Source: an uncultured Lachnospiraceae bacterium (GTDB lineage: Bacteria > Bacillota > Clostridia > Lachnospirales > Lachnospiraceae). Taken from it: DNA of 64,000 nucleotides. This document shows, piece by piece, positions 7,832 through 18,050 of this stretch (the first letter of the stretch is position 1; every line of letters begins with the position of its first letter). A model generated the notes under the pieces. The model was given only the letters and a program-made list of their open reading frames with translations. It had not been told where the DNA came from and did no database searches. The stretch is from the NCBI GenBank assembly GCA_902780385.1, contig CACZFF010000002.1, positions 1 through 64,000 on the forward strand, in the 5' to 3' direction. A program made the position numbers and the translations under genes.

Positions 7832-8842
7832 TCACTCCTCCACAATGGCAGTGTACTCGTCAAAGAGCTCCGCGCCGCAGTCCTCGCGGATGGTCTCCCA
7901 GACCGGCTGACACATCTGCCGCATGTCCTCGTAGTCCTGCTCGGAAGGCGTGACGATCTCCATGCCGGCATCCTCCAGGTATTTGGTGGCTTCCTCGGCC
8001 TTCTGATCTGAAATATCCTTGGCGTCCGCCTGGGCGAGGCGCGCCGCCTCTTCGATGATGGCAGCCTGTTCTTCGGTGAGGCTGTCCATAAACTTGCCGC
8101 TGGCGATCAGGGTGACGAGGTCCGGGACGGCATTGGTCCGGATCAGGCGCTTCTGCTGCTCATAGAGCTTGGCCGTCACGATCAGAGGTAGGGCGTTCTC
8201 CTGGGCGTCGATGGTGCCCTGCTGCAGACCGATGTAGACCTCGGAGAAGGTCATGGGGGTGGGATTGGCATTGACGCTCTTCCAGAACTGGATGTGGTAT
8301 TTGTTCTCCATGACCCGGATCTTCTGTCCCGCGATGGACGAGAGGTCTTCATAGGGTTTCGACATGGTCATTACGCGGAAGCCCTGGTCCGTGATCCCCA
8401 GGAAGCGGTAGCCGTGCTCCCTGTAGATCCTGCGGAACTCATCCATCAGCTTTTCGTTTTCCATGTTTTTGCGGAAGGTATTGATATCCGTATAGACACA
8501 GGGCGTGTCAAAGACACACAGCTGGGGAATATAGCTGACCTGGGGAGAGGGGGAAGCCACGATAAAGGGGATATCTCCGTCCTTCATACTCTCCATCAGC
8601 TCCAGGTCGGTTCCCAGTGTGCTGTCCGTATAGACCTGGATCTTCATTTTGCCGTCACTGAGCTCGCTCACATAATCGGCGAAGGTCTGCGCGAACACAT
8701 TGGTGACCGTATCGCCCGAACTGCAGGTCGCGAGGGGCCAGGCAAAGTGCTGTTCATTTTTTCTGCTGCTGATAAAGCCATAGGCAATTGCAGCGAAAAT
8801 GATCGCGATGGCGATCAGCTGTTTGATTCTTTTTCCACTCAT
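7832..8842 (-). CDS. dctP: TRAP transporter substrate-binding protein DctP (system 1)
   Basis: A 336-residue DctP-family solute receptor that hands carboxylate substrates to the DctQM permease. Family landmarks are R176 (KIRVMEN), which typically binds the substrate carboxylate, and the TFSEVYIGLQQGTIDAQEN block at 198-216. The N-terminus has a single hydrophobic segment (about residues 8-25) but no lipobox cysteine, so the protein may be anchored by an uncleaved helix, unlike its paralog at 26118-27161, which is a lipoprotein. AGGAGGT lies 11 bases before the ATG. It is the last gene of a dctQ-dctM-dctP operon near the quinate/shikimate genes, suggesting a hydroaromatic acid as cargo (inference). 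Confidence 0.9.
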   Translation of the reverse strand: MSGKRIKQLIAIAIIFAAIAYGFISSRKNEQHFAWPLATCSSGDTVTNVFAQTFADYVSELSDGKMKIQVYTDSTLGTDLELMESMKDGDIPFIVASPSPQVSYIPQLCVFDTPCVYTDINTFRKNMENEKLMDEFRRIYREHGYRFLGITDQGFRVMTMSKPYEDLSSIAGQKIRVMENKYHIQFWKSVNANPTPMTFSEVYIGLQQGTIDAQENALPLIVTAKLYEQQKRLIRTNAVPDLVTLIASGKFMDSLTEEQAAIIEEAARLAQADAKDISDQKAEEATKYLEDAGMEIVTPSEQDYEDMRQMCQPVWETIREDCGAELFDEYTAIVEE

Positions 8843-11175: not shown

Positions 11176-11556
11176 TCAGATATCCTTTTTCCAAAGGCCG
11201 TGCAGGTTGCAGTACTCATAAGCGGTGACAGCCTTGTCATCGACCAGAGTAAAGTCAGCCGCGGGAGCCTCGCCGGGCTCAAGGAACTTGCACTGAACGC
11301 CCTTCTCGGTCTCGAGGGCGATGAAGGTGATGTAGTGGGCATCCAGCATAGGGTGCTCGACGGAGCCGACTTTGACCTTGACAACGCCGTCTTCGACAGC
11401 GACATCGGGGACGTGTTTCTCTTTCGCGCCGTCGGTATCATTTGCGCGGACTTCGCTCATAGGCTCGCCGCAGCAGGAGGGAGAACATCCGCCTCTGTTG
11501 ATTTTCACGACCATGCTGCCGCACTTTTTGCACTTAAAAACTACGAGTTTTGCCAT
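11176..11556 (-). CDS. dfx: Desulfoferrodoxin (superoxide reductase)
   Basis: A 126-residue superoxide reductase that reduces superoxide to peroxide in the anaerobe cytoplasm. The N-terminal desulforedoxin-like domain has CKKC (about residues 9-12) and a second pair PSCCGEPM. The catalytic centre II ligands are visible: the EHPM histidine, DAHYI histidine and the C-terminal CNLHG. Length is typical for the two-domain form. The start at 11556 is chosen because AAGGGG precedes it and the upstream in-frame residues are not conserved-looking. It stands alone with its own terminator, downstream of the TetM-Rae1-like fusion gene. Confidence 0.93.
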   Translation of the reverse strand: MAKLVVFKCKKCGSMVVKINRGGCSPSCCGEPMSEVRANDTDGAKEKHVPDVAVEDGVVKVKVGSVEHPMLDAHYITFIALETEKGVQCKFLEPGEAPAADFTLVDDKAVTAYEYCNLHGLWKKDI

Positions 11557-11857
11557 AATAACCCCTTTCTTCTCCCGGGAATACTCTGCCGGATCCCGCA
11601 GATCATAAACCGGACCCGGTGTATGGAATATCCCGTGCCGAGACGATAGAACAATTGTTTTCCGATTTCTATTATATCCCATTCACCGACAATTTTGAAT
11701 AAAAAAAGCATGATATTCTAATGTATTTTTTACATAATGAACAAAAATTCTGCCGGCAGGAAACGCATTTTGTGCATGGAGGCGGAGCCGCGGGTACTCC
11801 GGAGCTTCCGGTCGCCGCCGGCAAATCCACCCCCCTGTGCTGCCCCATATGACTATT
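11557..11857. other. Intergenic region, desulfoferrodoxin to GTPase fusion
   Basis: 301 bases without a gene. The stretch 11640-11760 is AT-rich and probably carries the dfx promoter. A GC-rich part (11775-11830) may fold at the 3' end of the GTPase gene but has no clear T-run. Confidence 0.35.
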
Positions 11858-14800
11858 TTATTCATCTGTCCCGATGCCGTAGCGCTCCCGCATCTCCCGC
11901 TCCGTGAACAGGATCTCCTCCAGCAACATCTGGGCGGACATGCGGTAGGCGCCGGCGCCGAAGATAATGATCTGTTCGACGGCATCCGACGTGGCGACCG
12001 TGACGCGGTATTTTTTAGCCAGGACGTGGGCGGTCTTCTCGATGTAGAGGTCGGCAGTCTCCGCCTCTTTTGTAAAGACGACGTCGATATTGTGCCAGCG
12101 CAGGACCTCGCCGGGACCGCCGGCGACCTTGTAGGCGTCAAAGACCAGGATCACCTTTTCTGTGCGGTAGCCGGCAAAGTTGGACAGAATATCCATCAGC
12201 TTGTCGCGGGCGGACTTGATGTCCCGCATAGCAAGCTCACGGAGGTCATTCCAGGCAAAAATGATGTTGTAGCCGTCGACCAGCAGGTAATGGTCCTGCG
12301 GGGCAGGCTTCTTTTTCCTGACAGAGGCATCCGGCTGCTCTCCGCTCTCCAGCCCCCATGGATCATCCGCACCGGCCTTTTTCTTCTTCGGGGCCCCGTC
12401 CGGGCCTGCCGCAGGGTCAAACAGATCGCTCCCGCTGCCGGCTCTGGATTTAATCTGTCCGTAGGTGCGCTCGAAGATCTGCATGAGTTCTTTTTCAGCC
12501 GCAAAGACAGCCTGCTGGCGGCGCTTGAAGGCATCGTCCTGCTTTCGGCCCCCTGTACCGGACGGACCGCCGCCCTGACCGGAGGCACCTGCATTTCTGC
12601 CTCCGCTGCCTCCGCCGCCTCTGCTTCCTCCGTTTCCGGCAGCAGTGCCGTTCGGGTCTGTATCCAGGATGCCCTGCTCGAGCAGGTGCTTCTTTTTCTC
12701 GCGCTCCTCTGCCGCCTTTCTGGCGCGCTCGGCAGCCAGATCCAGAGCCTCTTCCTCGGTCATGGCAGGTGCTTCCTCCGGGAAGCGCCAGCCGGTGTCC
12801 ACATGCATAAAACTGCGGACCTCGTACCAGGGAATGATGGTGCCGGCGCCGTGGGAGCAGAACACAGAGGAGGAAGGGTTGCGGACATCCAGCTCGGGGT
12901 CATAGCCCGAGGCCGCGATGACCGCCTCCGCGTTTTTGCAGGGGACATAGCCCTTTAGGGTGCACTGAAGAGACCCTGCACCGCGGGTGTAGGCGGCGAC
13001 CTCCTCGACGTAGTTGCCCAGGGCTGCGACCGTCACGGTTCCCTGCAGGACCGCTGTATTGTTTTTAGAAGAAAACTCAGGCTGGCCGAAGGAGGCGTCC
13101 ATCTGCTGCAGGTCCGACATGGCCCTGCCCAGGTTCTCCTGAGGAAGTTCCAGGCAGAAGCTGTAGGCCGGCTCCAGAAGGACCGACTGCGCCATCATCA
13201 GGCCCTGGCGGACTGCCCGGTAGGTGGCCTTGCGGAAATCGCCGCCCTCCGTATGCTTGGCATGGGCGCGGCCGCCGATGATGCTAATCTTCATATCCGT
13301 GATCTCGGCGCCCATGAGCACTCCCCTGTGGCGGCGCTCCTCCAGATGGGTCATGATCAGGCGCTGCCAGTTGAGGGCCAGATCGTTGACGGAACAGCGG
13401 CTCTCAAAGACCAGTCCGCTGCCGGGTTCACCGGGCTCCAGCAGCAGGTGGACCTCTGCGTAGTGGCGCAGGGGCTCGAAATGGCCGACGCCCTCCACGG
13501 TGTCAGCAATGGTCTCCTTGTAGATGATCCTGGAGGGTCCGAACTCGATCTGCATGTCGAAGCGGTCCTTGATCAGGCGCTGCAGGATCTCCCTCTGGAC
13601 CTGACCCATGACCTGGACAGTGATCTCCTTTTTCTCCTCATCGTAGGACAGGCGGAGCATGGGATCCTCTTCCTCCAGGGCGCGCAGCTTTCTGTAGGCC
13701 GCGTAGAGGTCCTGTCCGGGCGGCAGGATCAGCCGGCTCTGCATGACCGGCTGCAGCAGACGCTCGGTCTCCTCCCTGTCCGCCTCGGCCCCCAGTCCCA
13801 TACCGGCCCGGGTCCCTGTCAGCCCCGGGACGGCGACAATGATGCCGGCGGGAGCCTCCTGCAGGGCCTCATACTTTTCCCCTTTGTAAAAGCGGAGCTG
13901 GGCCGCCTTCTCGGGCTGCCCTTTTTCATCCGGGCTCTCCGGAATCTGCTGCCTGGGCAGAAGGGAGCCGCCGGTGATCTTCATCCAGGTAAGCCGCGCG
14001 CCGGTCCCCGTTCCGCCGCCTGCGGAAGCATTGCCGCCCTCGTGGGTAATCTTGTAGATCCTGGCGCCGAAAGTCTCCCCGCGGGGCGGCTCCTTGGCCA
14101 ATGTATCCATCATAGCCAGCAGGTCGTCGACCCCTTCCTCCCGAAGGGCCGAGCCGAAGCAGACCGGAAAGAGCTTTCGCTCCGCGGCCAGCTCCGCCGC
14201 ATCCGCCAGCGTGATCTCCTCCCCGTCAAAAAAGCGCTCCATCAGGTCCTCGTCGCAGACTGCGATCTCCTCCTGCAGTTGAGGAGAAAAGACCGGTTCG
14301 GTCTGCAGGGGCGCATATTCTGCAGAATCTTTACTTGAAAAAACATCGGGTTTTCCGGAAAAAGCACCAGATGCGCCCCCACCTGAGGCAGCACCAGCCG
14401 CAGCGTCGGCCGGAACGGCCGCCGCGAAGGCCTCCTGCAGATCCACGCAGGCACTTCCGAGTTCCTCCCGAATCTGCGCATAGACAGCCGCCCGGTCCGC
14501 CCCGGACTGGTCCATCTTGTTGACAAACAGAAAGGCAGGAACCCCGTAATGCTCCAGAAGTCTCCAGAGCGTGCGCACCTGCCCGGTGACGCCGTCCGCC
14601 GCGCTGATGATCAGGACCGCGTAATCCAGCACCTGCAGGACTCGCTCCATCTCTGTGGAAAAATCGGCGTGTCCGGGCGTATCCACCAGGGTCCAGATTC
14701 GCTCGATCTGTGTCCGGCTGCCCGTCGTTCCGGCTGTTCCGGCTGCCGGCCCGCCTGTTCTGCCCGCTTTTCGGTTTTTTTTCGCGGTTTCCGTGGGTAG

Positions 14801-15013
14801 AGAAAAAACCGGCCTGGTCGTGAACGAGGCCTGCTTGGAAAAAATCGTGATGCCCCGGTCCCGCTCCATGGAATCGGTATCCAGGAAAGCATCCCCGTGG
14901 TCCACCCGTCCCGCATTGCGGATCGCGCCGGTGCGATGCAGAAGCGCCTCCGAAAGCGTTGTCTTGCCCGCGTCCACGTGTGCCAGCAGACCGATACAGA
15001 TATATTCACGCAT
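11858..15013 (-). CDS. TetM-like ribosomal GTPase fused to a Rae1/YacP-type NYN ribonuclease
   Basis: A 1051-residue fusion. The N-terminal two thirds is an EF-G-like ribosomal protection GTPase of the TetM/TetO group, with AHVDAGKTT (G1, residues 11-19), DRGITI (G2), DTPGHADF (G3) and NKMD (G4). Low-complexity stretches interrupt it, one between G2 and G3 and one after G4. A long Gly/Ser-rich linker (about residues 780-900) leads to a complete NYN domain (907-1051) with VDGYNII, VFDAYK, FTKEAETAD and ATSDAVEQ. These match B. subtilis Rae1 (YacP), an endoribonuclease that cuts mRNA in the ribosomal A site. TetM-type proteins act at the same site, so the fusion could deliver a nuclease to the A site. 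TetM itself is about 640 residues. No ribosome binding site stronger than AAAGGAT is seen. It is probably a single-gene unit. Confidence 0.9.
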   Translation of the reverse strand: MREYICIGLLAHVDAGKTTLSEALLHRTGAIRNAGRVDHGDAFLDTDSMERDRGITIFSKQASFTTRPVFSLPTETAKKNRKAGRTGGPAAGTAGTTGSRTQIERIWTLVDTPGHADFSTEMERVLQVLDYAVLIISAADGVTGQVRTLWRLLEHYGVPAFLFVNKMDQSGADRAAVYAQIREELGSACVDLQEAFAAAVPADAAAGAASGGGASGAFSGKPDVFSSKDSAEYAPLQTEPVFSPQLQEEIAVCDEDLMERFFDGEEITLADAAELAAERKLFPVCFGSALREEGVDDLLAMMDTLAKEPPRGETFGARIYKITHEGGNASAGGGTGTGARLTWMKITGGSLLPRQQIPESPDEKGQPEKAAQLRFYKGEKYEALQEAPAGIIVAVPGLTGTRAGMGLGAEADREETERLLQPVMQSRLILPPGQDLYAAYRKLRALEEEDPMLRLSYDEEKKEITVQVMGQVQREILQRLIKDRFDMQIEFGPSRIIYKETIADTVEGVGHFEPLRHYAEVHLLLEPGEPGSGLVFESRCSVNDLALNWQRLIMTHLEERRHRGVLMGAEITDMKISIIGGRAHAKHTEGGDFRKATYRAVRQGLMMAQSVLLEPAYSFCLELPQENLGRAMSDLQQMDASFGQPEFSSKNNTAVLQGTVTVAALGNYVEEVAAYTRGAGSLQCTLKGYVPCKNAEAVIAASGYDPELDVRNPSSSVFCSHGAGTIIPWYEVRSFMHVDTGWRFPEEAPAMTEEEALDLAAERARKAAEEREKKKHLLEQGILDTDPNGTAAGNGGSRGGGGSGGRNAGASGQGGGPSGTGGRKQDDAFKRRQQAVFAAEKELMQIFERTYGQIKSRAGSGSDLFDPAAGPDGAPKKKKAGADDPWGLESGEQPDASVRKKKPAPQDHYLLVDGYNIIFAWNDLRELAMRDIKSARDKLMDILSNFAGYRTEKVILVFDAYKVAGGPGEVLRWHNIDVVFTKEAETADLYIEKTAHVLAKKYRVTVATSDAVEQIIIFGAGAYRMSAQMLLEEILFTEREMRERYGIGTDE

Positions 15014-15081
15014 ATTTGTTTATCCTTTTTTCGTTTATTCTTTATGGTCAAAATCCATTATGATCATAGTTCTTTATGAGT

Positions 15082-15111
15082 ATCATTCTTAATGATGATC
15101 ATTCTTAATGA
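15082..15111. promoter_or_regulatory. Tandem palindromic operator candidate upstream of the GTPase-nuclease fusion
   Basis: ATCATTCTTAATGA occurs twice (15082-15095, 15098-15111), 69 bases before the start codon. Each copy is a palindrome TCATT-N3-AATGA, and across the junction AATGAT-G-ATCATT forms a 6-1-6 repeat like the boxes of Fur/PerR-family repressors. A possible -10 TATGAT lies downstream on the minus strand. Confidence 0.5.
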
Positions 15112-15169: not shown

Positions 15170-15946
15170 TTAAAAACCGCCTTCTGCAGGTCTTTTTCCG
15201 ATCAGCTTGACGATTTCCTTTTCAGGGCTGTCGGGGTATGCTCCGCGGACATGCCGGAAAACGCGGTCCCAGGATTGTGCGGGGGATTCCGCATAGGCTT
15301 TTGTCACAGCGGCGTGGCCCCAGACCGCTTCCGGGGGCTGCAGGACAGATACCGACATACCGTATTCCTGCCCCCGCTTGTTCTTCCTTCTGCGGAAATC
15401 CGTGATGACAAGGTAGATCTGCATCTGGAGTCCGGTGATGATGCCCGGGTAGTTTTTCTCCCTGCCCTTCCCGAATCCAGCCATCTTTTTGAGGTCCGTG
15501 GACAGGATCTGATCCGTCTTCCAGGTCACATCCCCGTCTTCATCTATGTCCATCATGAAATCCATGATCATCTTTTCGCGCCGACTGGCAAGGCCGTCCT
15601 CCCAGCGGGCGTCAAAATCGTAGCCCTCACGCCGGAAATTTGCAAAATACGGCAGCCATTCCAAACTGATAAAGCCCGCTCTGCCGCCGAAAAACTTCCC
15701 GTAGGCGACCTGACGGCCGGCGGCAATGATCTCCCGCCACTCCCAGGGATCCTCACTGCGGATACCCGACCACCAGTAGTCGGGTGATGTGTGTTCCTCG
15801 GCGGAAAAGCCTGTCACACCGTTCCCGAAAAGGGGGAGAAATCCAATCTCATTGATCCAGTTGATAAGCTCCTGCCATGTGCGGATCCTGTAGGGGTCGT
15901 CCCAGGCCATTCCGCGCATGATCCACTCGCCGTTTTCGATCGACAT
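15170..15946 (-). CDS. AlkZ-related (winged-helix) protein, function unknown
   Basis: A 258-residue soluble protein that I associate with the AlkZ-related family of Clostridia; AlkZ proteins are winged-helix DNA glycosylases. Visible features are a conserved-looking block around DYWWSGI, DPWEWREII and YGKFFGG, followed by basic and aromatic residues. The QxQ-type catalytic motif of true AlkZ/AlkX glycosylases is not obvious, so activity is uncertain. I chose the start at 15946 because AGGA lies 6 bases upstream; starts at 15997 and 16024 are also in frame. It is followed by the GTPase fusion gene in divergent spacing, with no clear operon partner. Confidence 0.55.
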   Translation of the reverse strand: MSIENGEWIMRGMAWDDPYRIRTWQELINWINEIGFLPLFGNGVTGFSAEEHTSPDYWWSGIRSEDPWEWREIIAAGRQVAYGKFFGGRAGFISLEWLPYFANFRREGYDFDARWEDGLASRREKMIMDFMMDIDEDGDVTWKTDQILSTDLKKMAGFGKGREKNYPGIITGLQMQIYLVITDFRRRKNKRGQEYGMSVSVLQPPEAVWGHAAVTKAYAESPAQSWDRVFRHVRGAYPDSPEKEIVKLIGKRPAEGGF

Positions 15947-16024
15947 CTCTAGTCCTGTCTCCTGTTCTCCTGCTTTTTTTGAAAATACGCGATTCATTAT
16001 AACATCCCAGGCAATCCAGAACAA

Positions 16025-16598: not shown

Positions 16599-18050
16599 AT
16601 GAGAACGTACGAGTTGTTTATCAATGGCGAATTCATCCCGAACGGAGACCGCGAAATGCTGCAGGTCATCAATCCCGCGACGGAGGAAGTGATCTCCGAG
16701 GTTCCCAAAGCGACAGCGGCAGATGTTGAAGCGGCGATCGATGCCGCAGCCGCCGCGCAGAAAGAGTGGGCCAAAACGCCTCCCATCGTACGTGCCGGCT
16801 ACGTCCGCGAGCTGGCACAGCTGGTCGCCGACAATCGTGAGCTGTTCGCAAGGACCAACTCGGAAGAGATGGGCAAGCCTCTGGCACAGTCCATGGACGA
16901 GGCCGGCTGGCTGACCGAATATCTCAATTATTTCGCGGAAATGGCGCGTCATATCAAGGGACAGATCATTCCCTCCGACCGCCCCAACGAGAATATTTTC
17001 ATGTACAAGATGCCTCTGGGCGTCGTGGCAGGCATCATGCCCTGGAACTTCCCGCTCTTCCTGATCGGCCGCAAAGTGGCTCCGGTCCTGATGGCGGGCT
17101 GTACGGTCGTGCTCAAGCCCTCCAGCGACTCCCCCAACGGCTGCTATGAGTTCGCCAAGCTGGTCGAGAAGAGCTCTCTTCCCAAGGGCGTCATCAATGT
17201 GATCACCGGATCCGGCGCCGTTGTGGGCGATATGCTTGCCTCCAGCCCCAAAGTACAGATGGTCTCCATGACGGGATCCACGGCAGCCGGCAAGAAGATC
17301 ATGGAGAGAGCCGCTGCCAACGTCACAAAGGTGTCTCTGGAGCTGGGCGGCAAGGCTCCGGTCATCGTCATGAACGACTGCAAGCTGGATGAGACCATCG
17401 AGCATGTTTACAATTCCCGTATCATCAACACCGGCCAGGCCTGCAACTGCGCAGAGCGCATCTATGTGCAGGAAGGCATTTACGATGAATTTGTCAAAAA
17501 GATCGTCGCGCGCTTTGAGAAGACCACCTACGGCAATCCTCTGGAAGGTGCCTTCGACATGGGTCCCATGGTCAACAAGGCACAGCAGCAGCATGTGGAC
17601 GAGTTGGTCAAGAGTGCCATTGCGGACGGTGCGACCGTGTGCTGCGGCGGACATCCCGCAACCGTAAACGGCAAGGGCTATTTCTATGAGCCCACCGTCA
17701 TCACCGGCTGCGAGCACGGCTCCAGGATCATGACCGAGGAAATTTTCGGACCTGTCCTGCCGATCACGACCTTTAAGACCTTTGACGAGGTGATCGAGAA
17801 AGCCAACGACTGCATCTTCGGTCTGACCTCTTCCATCTATTCCACCAACTGGGATACCATCATGCGCGCCCTCAACGAGCTGCACTACGGCGAGACTTAT
17901 GTCAACCGTGAGCACTTCGAAGCCTTCCAGGGCTTCCATGCAGGTGTCCGCCAGTCCGGCCTGGGCGGCGACGACGGTGAACTCGGCCTTGAAGAATTCC
18001 TCGAGACCCACGTCTGCTACGTGGACTATGACCTGAACGCCCAGGGATAA
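16599..18050 (+). CDS. aldA: Aldehyde dehydrogenase, AldA (lactaldehyde/glycolaldehyde) type
   Basis: A 483-residue NAD-dependent aldehyde dehydrogenase oxidising an aldehyde to its acid. MPWNFP (residues about 147-152), the GSTAAG nucleotide motif, catalytic glutamate in LELGGKAP and catalytic cysteine in NTGQACNCAER are present. The C-terminus NREHFEAFQGFHAG and SGLGGDDG resembles E. coli AldA, which oxidises lactaldehyde and glycolaldehyde, so that specificity is the best guess. GGGAGG precedes the ATG. It is a single gene between a repeat-rich spacer and a terminator; no fucose or rhamnose genes lie nearby. Confidence 0.88.
   Translation: MRTYELFINGEFIPNGDREMLQVINPATEEVISEVPKATAADVEAAIDAAAAAQKEWAKTPPIVRAGYVRELAQLVADNRELFARTNSEEMGKPLAQSMDEAGWLTEYLNYFAEMARHIKGQIIPSDRPNENIFMYKMPLGVVAGIMPWNFPLFLIGRKVAPVLMAGCTVVLKPSSDSPNGCYEFAKLVEKSSLPKGVINVITGSGAVVGDMLASSPKVQMVSMTGSTAAGKKIMERAAANVTKVSLELGGKAPVIVMNDCKLDETIEHVYNSRIINTGQACNCAERIYVQEGIYDEFVKKIVARFEKTTYGNPLEGAFDMGPMVNKAQQQHVDELVKSAIADGATVCCGGHPATVNGKGYFYEPTVITGCEHGSRIMTEEIFGPVLPITTFKTFDEVIEKANDCIFGLTSSIYSTNWDTIMRALNELHYGETYVNREHFEAFQGFHAGVRQSGLGGDDGELGLEEFLETHVCYVDYDLNAQG

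Follow-up and report, generated by a model that had tools for sequence, protein, structure and literature searches.

What might a translational GTPase and a Rae1-type ribonuclease accomplish when they are synthesized as one polypeptide? The question is raised by a gene on the minus strand (11858..15013) of the window, that is, the whole stretch of 64,000 nucleotides analyzed here (contig CACZFF010000002.1 of assembly GCA_902780385.1, from an uncultured Lachnospiraceae bacterium). From the letters alone, the original prediction had described this gene as a TetM-like ribosomal GTPase joined via a Gly-rich linker to a complete Rae1-type nuclease. We lean, by a modest measure, towards the view that the product is a GTPase-guided, ribosome-dependent mRNA endonuclease which replaces free-standing Rae1.

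Architecture and distribution of the fusion

The gene consists of a single stop-free frame (1,051 aa plus stop codon, with an ATG start), in which an EF-G/Tet-type GTPase is followed by a long linker and an NYN_YacP (Rae1) domain, every Pfam match being above its cut-off. The GTP-binding domain (GTP_EFTU, aa 4–306, E value 6.4e-48; 14096..15004, this and all following parts of the gene on the minus strand) precedes EFG_III (aa 441–492), EFG_IV (aa 495–609), and EFG_C (aa 611–695); the last two, corresponding to EF-G domains IV and V (aa 495–695), are encoded by 12929..13531. A C-terminal extension of the GTPase (aa 696–737; 12803..12928) ends in W..V..(Y/F)MH and leads into the Gly/Ala-rich linker (aa 738–908; 12290..12802). 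The nuclease domain (aa 909–1051; 11861..12289) belongs to NYN_YacP (PF05991), which aa 910–1045 match with 152.1 bits against a cut-off of 24.6 (1.9e-44). The frame and the Pfam matches thus bear out the order of parts that had been read from the sequence.

Chance, a frameshift, or an artificial join of two genes during assembly is ruled out as the origin of the fusion by its relatives. Scanning named GTDB contigs yielded at least 597 matching stretches, at least 595 of them confirmed; among the best 80, to which the figures for named relatives apply, 79 have GTPase and NYN domain in one frame, and the remaining one (L174) stops at a contig end. These best named relatives are mostly Lachnospiraceae, and the carriers include Butyrivibrio proteoclasticus P18, Clostridium fessum, Clostridium punense DSM 28650, and Anaerostipes butyraticus. 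Thirty long frames, that of the window included, share the architecture, one of them (L068) being truncated within the NYN part, where its contig ends. In a sample of 100 genomes of the family, which contains the draft genome of the window (the host genome; 92% complete), NYN_YacP was present in 90 and the GTPase subfamily defined below in 86. In 79 of the 90, the NYN domain followed the GTPase with contig, strand, and frame in common, and in nine it stood alone; the other two were a genome cut by contig ends (G095) and one with the NYN domain in another frame (G042). The latter locus (L062) has a GTPase of 711 aa and an NYN part of 190 aa in overlapping, different frames, either a split gene or a frameshift. 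At the level of the class, the GTPase subfamily occurred in 122 of 291 genomes, with 98 of its 124 places in frames of at least 841 aa; at the level of the phylum, it occurred in 30 of 398, 23 in frames of at least 857 aa and seven in frames of 651–674 aa. The fusion architecture is therefore confirmed as real, widespread, and conserved in many genera.

The linker of the window protein (171 aa) is the longest among the 63 rows of the alignment used here (A2), where linker length has a median of 93 aa and ranges from 70 to 171 aa. It contains a conserved island, ELMQIFERTYG (aa 842–852; 12458..12490); the corresponding pattern ELxxIFxRTYG was found in 42 of 63 linkers. It may be a binding motif; outside the island, the linker is variable. 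Low-complexity insertions that keep the frame are present in the window protein at aa 68–103, 204–236, 326–335, and 780–822, each in less than 10% of 62 relatives; one of them falls between switch I of the GTPase and DTPGH, and that at aa 780–822 makes up much of the Gly-rich linker. Because the latter insertion is so rare among relatives, the Gly-rich character of the linker looks like a trait of this strain rather than of the fusion family.

The GTPase and the nuclease

The GTPase motifs AHVDAGKTT, DTPGH, NKMD, and GSAL are all intact, and His115 of DTPGH is identical in 63 of 63 rows. TetM (3j9y, 2.5e-62) and then EF-G were the best matches among solved structures. The best NCBIfam match was tet_protect (NF012153, 1.2e-114), yet with 383.8 bits against a curated cut-off of 775; the TetM/TetW/TetO/TetS model NF033148 was likewise missed (239.5 versus 1100 bits), as were all five Tet models listed at their curated cut-offs, and the EF-G model TIGR00484 (240.1 versus 659.4 bits). 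The tip loop of domain IV (aa 581–594; 13232..13273) reads GRAHAKHTEGGDFR in the window protein and GRAHxKHTEGGDFR in the fusion subfamily, compared with GLYYSPVSTPADFR in TetM and GSYHEVDSSEMAF in EF-G, and ranks among the most conserved stretches. Pro509 of TetM, located in the tetracycline site (PMC8161019), aligns with Lys586 of the window protein, and this Lys is invariant (63/63 rows). A His at the position of the tip His of EF-G is kept in 27 of 30 fused rows, with Ser in L064, L065, and L067.

For the region that starts with domain IV and includes the C-terminal extension, a local profile of 34 members scored at least 341 bits on these members versus at most 143 bits on two protection-protein-like sequences and on the EF-G and the EF-G paralogue of the host genome. 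Members outside the build reached at least 270 bits if complete in this region, the long-branched fusions L101, L115, and L116 scoring 270–318. As judged by these sequence comparisons, the fusion GTPase is a separate subfamily, distinct from both the Tet protection proteins and EF-G. Of the "TetM-like GTPase", the EF-G-like domains and intact motifs stand; a protein that reads the drug and protects against it is not supported, given the replaced Pro509 loop and the scores below the Tet cut-offs. The stand-alone sister GTPases, mostly of ∼650 aa, terminate with the W..V..YMH stretch or no more than some 13 residues after it, where the fusions continue into the linker. Within the extension (here aa 692–737; 12803–12940), Cys692, Cys719, His721, and His737 are conserved, a pattern that could point to a metal site.

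The nearest solved protein to the nuclease half is YacP (5mq8/5mq9, 1.1e-26), which we take to be Rae1/YacP of Bacillus subtilis. Asp7, Asp53, Asp81, and Asp104 of that chain correspond to Asp913, Asp959, Asp988, and Asp1010, and are identical in 84/84, 84/84, 84/84, and 83/83 aligned NYN domains, respectively (54 rows labeled as fused). These four residues lie in the active-site region and have a catalytic role; their invariance agrees with the expectation, attached to the original prediction, that the acidic residues of the nuclease would be conserved. The domain had also been called complete, which holds for the catalytic core but not for the domain as a whole: the match covers profile positions 1–138 of 166, and a tail of ∼25 residues is missing. 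Only 41 residues follow the fourth Asp in the window protein versus at least 64 in 29 of 29 stand-alone Rae1 proteins, so that the tail of the stand-alone type (∼65 residues) is lacking. No remnant of it was seen by eye in the three translated frames downstream of the stop codon. Tails of 41 residues or fewer occurred in 14 of 53 fused domains (that of the window included) and in none of 29 stand-alone ones (Fisher 0.0015, ignoring kinship; eight changes on the tree), and in 15 of 62 proteins of the named set. That the tail was lost repeatedly, and only in fusions, suggests that some of the docking of Rae1 has passed to the GTPase. NYN_YacP-like reading frames were also present in 12 phage-labeled records (hits H11–H20; human fecal phages, small Listeria records, and others).

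Apparent replacement of stand-alone Rae1 and possible modes of action

Where rae1 stands alone, it is immediately preceded by rlmB in 23 of 29 loci (in seven of the nine stand-alone genomes of the family sample), with cysS and an RNase-III-domain gene, which we take to be mrnC, ahead and a SigH-like gene behind. In this assignment rlmB scored over its curated cut-off, and cysS and the RNase III domain were recognized as Pfam matches; "SigH-like" denotes that SigH models matched best but below cut-off (190.5 versus 208 bits), none of the 100 family genomes exceeding that of TIGR02859. The fusion is the single NYN_YacP match in the host genome, in which no stand-alone copy was found at 92% completeness, as the original prediction had proposed to check. 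The operon is otherwise intact there; only 19 bases, and no gene, separate rlmB from the SigH-like gene (L226), so the slot for a stand-alone Rae1 is empty. Likewise, rae1 was absent from the slot behind rlmB in the six fusion genomes read, in one of which (L224) the stretch also yielded no SigH-like gene. When the gap from match end to match start was scored wherever rlmB and the SigH-like gene share contig and strand, it amounted to 14–144 bases in 51 of 52 scorable fusion genomes (the exception, G096, having 1,128); 27 more were left unscored for a missing match, and in two the genes lay apart. Three of the nine stand-alone genomes could be scored, with gaps of 564, 570, and 2,311 bases. 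By this comparison of loci, the fusion appears to have taken the place of stand-alone Rae1.

Presence of the two domains is also linked. In the family sample, the GTPase was found in 86 of 90 NYN-positive versus 0 of 10 NYN-negative genomes (Fisher 5.8e-11), and in the class sample, NYN was found in 114 of 122 GTPase-positive versus 75 of 169 GTPase-negative genomes (5e-20), both values being uncorrected for kinship. Rae1 thus often occurs without the GTPase and the GTPase seldom without Rae1, a pattern that fits the GTPase as an accessory of Rae1. The GTPase tree requires one change between fused and stand-alone forms, 23 stand-alone GTPases forming one clade (SH-aLRT 100), and places several long-branched fused rows apart from the main clade of fusions. 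Three such changes are needed on the NYN tree, whose resolution is weak. A clean history with a single fusion event was rejected on these grounds, and the fused rows outside the main clade make fusion and later fission indistinguishable.

EF-G-type factors insert domain IV into the A site and leave upon GTP hydrolysis (for TetM, see PMC8161019). If the fusion GTPase behaves alike, its GTP form would bind the factor site of a ribosome that is slow or stalled, domain IV would enter the A site, and the GTPase would depart once GTP is hydrolyzed. The Rae1 domain, flexibly tethered at the C-terminal extension of the GTPase, would then move into the emptied A site and cut the codon there, whereupon the message would be degraded and the ribosome would be free for rescue. 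That the fusion binds ribosomes and cleaves in the A site, in which order the steps occur, and what triggers them is inferred from the protein families concerned. What is observed is one polypeptide with intact GTPase motifs and invariant Asp residues, found in many genera, an empty rae1 slot, and a GTPase that is rare without a Rae1 domain. The original prediction of a device coupling rescue to decay is partly supported, and the coupling of ribosome binding to message cleavage would still be the preferred interpretation.

Several points weigh against a GTPase-guided mRNA endonuclease that replaces Rae1. GTPase and NYN domain hardly both fit the A site at once, so that sequential action has to be assumed. 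No tmRNA scored over the Rfam cut-off in the host genome (92% complete; best match 40.1 versus 47 bits and of tRNA size), which leaves the assumed downstream rescue route unconfirmed. Eight of the 122 GTPase-positive genomes of the class sample have no NYN match (G128, G133, G161, G177, G230, G282, G305, and G335; G128, G161, and G282 belong to one genus, and the match in G230 is situated where a contig ends). Apparently, then, the GTPase is able to function in the absence of Rae1, and their association has exceptions; conversely, 75 of 189 NYN-positive genomes of this sample lack the GTPase. The SigH-like gene lies directly behind rlmB in four of five scored NYN-less family genomes as well; loss of rae1 from the operon is therefore no proof of its replacement by the fusion. 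Finally, forms without the Rae1 tail might have a weaker nuclease: in B. subtilis, the exchange R166P within that tail suppresses efp like loss of rae1 (PMC6613710).

A role in protecting the ribosome from tetracyclines or some other drug, with RNase activity added, is implied by some NCBI product names and was proposed by Atkinson 2015 (section 9 of PMC4342817). It has in its favor that tet_protect and TetM are the top NCBIfam and solved-structure matches and that a fusion of Agathobacter rectalis is annotated as TetM/TetW/TetO/TetS family. We regard it as quite improbable, given the shortfall against the cut-offs (384 versus 775 and 240 versus 1100 bits), the invariant Lys in place of the Pro of the tetracycline site, and the presence of the GTPase subfamily in 86 genera of the 100 in the family sample, which is nearer to a core gene than to a resistance gene. 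Genome G028 moreover carries, besides the fusion, a separate TetM/TetO-type protection protein (L078) with the loop YYSPVSTP.

The GTPase could also be a mere anchor bringing Rae1 to ribosomes in general, with GTP hydrolysis not gating the cut; the flexible linker of variable length, the recurrent loss of the tail of Rae1 among fusions, and the occurrence of sister GTPases as separate genes would suit such a role. It is unlikely, since an anchor would need neither the GTPase motifs and His115, all of which are kept, nor a domain IV tip that is among the most conserved stretches. Least probable, in our estimation, is a factor for ribosome maturation or quality checking whose nuclease acts on rRNA or tRNA instead of mRNA. 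It would account for stand-alone rae1 lying among the mrnC-like gene and rlmB, whose products target 23S rRNA in B. subtilis or E. coli (PMC8266666; PMC6613710), and NYN domains were first proposed to function in rRNA and tRNA maturation (cited in PMC4342817). Against it, the characterized relative, Rae1 of B. subtilis, is reported to cut mRNA in the A site, and the fusion lies outside the rae1 operon, with no neighboring family beside more than four fused loci among the clusters listed.

A more far-reaching form of the GTPase-guided endonuclease would be a GTP-timed enzyme of no-go decay, serving as the main Rae1-type system of Lachnospiraceae and many other Clostridia: the GTPase half would pick stalled ribosomes, clear or translocate the A site, hydrolyze GTP, and thereby hand the site to the tethered nuclease for cutting of the message. 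This we put forward tentatively, as doubtful in its full extent. To our knowledge, with no literature search aimed at this point, there is no single protein that resets a stalled ribosome as well as cutting its mRNA.

Surroundings of the gene and comparison with known systems

Upstream of the fusion gene, at 15037..15110, lies an array of 16-nt tandem direct repeats (four to five degenerate copies of CATTAAGAATGATCAT and variants), overlapping weak promoter-like sites that match at 9 of 12 bases. What had been described as a tandem palindromic operator is this direct array: an exact direct repeat as long as its longest (14 nt) arose in 0 of 500 shuffles, a perfect palindrome as long as its longest in 97 of 500. 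The degenerate pattern occurs in the host genome only upstream of the fusion (two overlapping matches; a reversed control pattern gave one match), and by eye was not seen in the 150 bases upstream of 10 relatives. With these results and the weak promoter-like matches, the idea of a stress or metal operator was abandoned. Neighboring genes encode a DctP-type solute-binding protein (7835–8842), a desulfoferrodoxin (11179–11559), an AlkZ-related protein (15173–15967), and an aldehyde dehydrogenase (16599–18047). The scarcity of recurrent neighbors given above also led to the rejection of a conserved operon or mobile cargo, and a part in anti-phage defense was dismissed for want of a PADLOC match at E 0.01. 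In a plasmid collection, at least two records contain the fusion (A. rectalis and M. pectinilyticus), both typed non-mobilizable; 952 records matched the part from domain IV to the extension, and 12 of these were inspected.

The original prediction knew of no described function, and none was found in the literature searched; the architecture itself, by contrast, was published in 2015, when section 9 of PMC4342817 (Atkinson 2015) reported Tet-NYN proteins with a YacP-like NYN RNase domain in ten Clostridiales species and considered antibiotic resistance. In publications on Rae1/YacP, on NYN domains with TetM or translational GTPases, and on protection proteins (a coverage that excludes Leroy 2017, Condon 2018, Deves 2023, and Gilet 2025), the fusion was seen only there. 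Public annotation is split between "TetM/TetW/TetO/TetS family" (A. rectalis) and "translation factor GTPase family protein" (M. pectinilyticus), and, as far as sequence can tell, neither the curated cut-offs nor the tip loop support the Tet assignment. At least one fusion, that of A. rectalis, is thus named a tetracycline resistance protein, while the window protein misses both the cut-off and the drug-contacting residue; names of this kind may lead to overcounting of resistance genes in gut genomes. The fusion lies in one frame in 79 of 100 genomes of Lachnospiraceae, a large group of gut bacteria. New here are the non-TetM tip together with the missed Tet cut-off, the invariant Asp residues, the apparent replacement of Rae1, the rarity of the GTPase without Rae1, and tail loss in fused forms only. 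If the proposed function is true, one chain links a translational GTPase to mRNA decay, and the choice of stalled ribosomes by A-site nucleases becomes directly testable.

Compared with Tet(M) and Tet(O), the fusion GTPase has the same EF-G-like order of domains, the GTPase motifs, and a C-terminal extension in common, but differs in the tip (GRAHxKHTEGGDFR versus GLYYSPVSTPADFR) and scores too low for each of the five listed Tet models by their curated cut-offs. With EF-G it shares the order of domains and the tip His (GRAH aligning with GSYH of the EF-G of the host genome), whereas domain IV has a loop I shortened by four residues, the rest of the tip differs, and the cut-off of TIGR00484 is missed. 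Rae1/YacP of B. subtilis, an A-site mRNA endoribonuclease according to PMC6613710 and PMC12320835, has an NYN_YacP domain with the same four Asp residues; it is free-standing, its stand-alone relatives lie in a cysS-mrnC-rlmB-rae1-sigH neighborhood and carry the C-terminal tail, and the fusion of the window is without that tail. The Tet-NYN proteins of Atkinson 2015 have the same architecture as the fusion described here; section 9 of that paper devotes two sentences to them, refers to Additional file 8, and proposes resistance, and the present analysis adds the distribution, the tip, the nuclease residues, the operon slot, and the dependence of the GTPase on the NYN domain.

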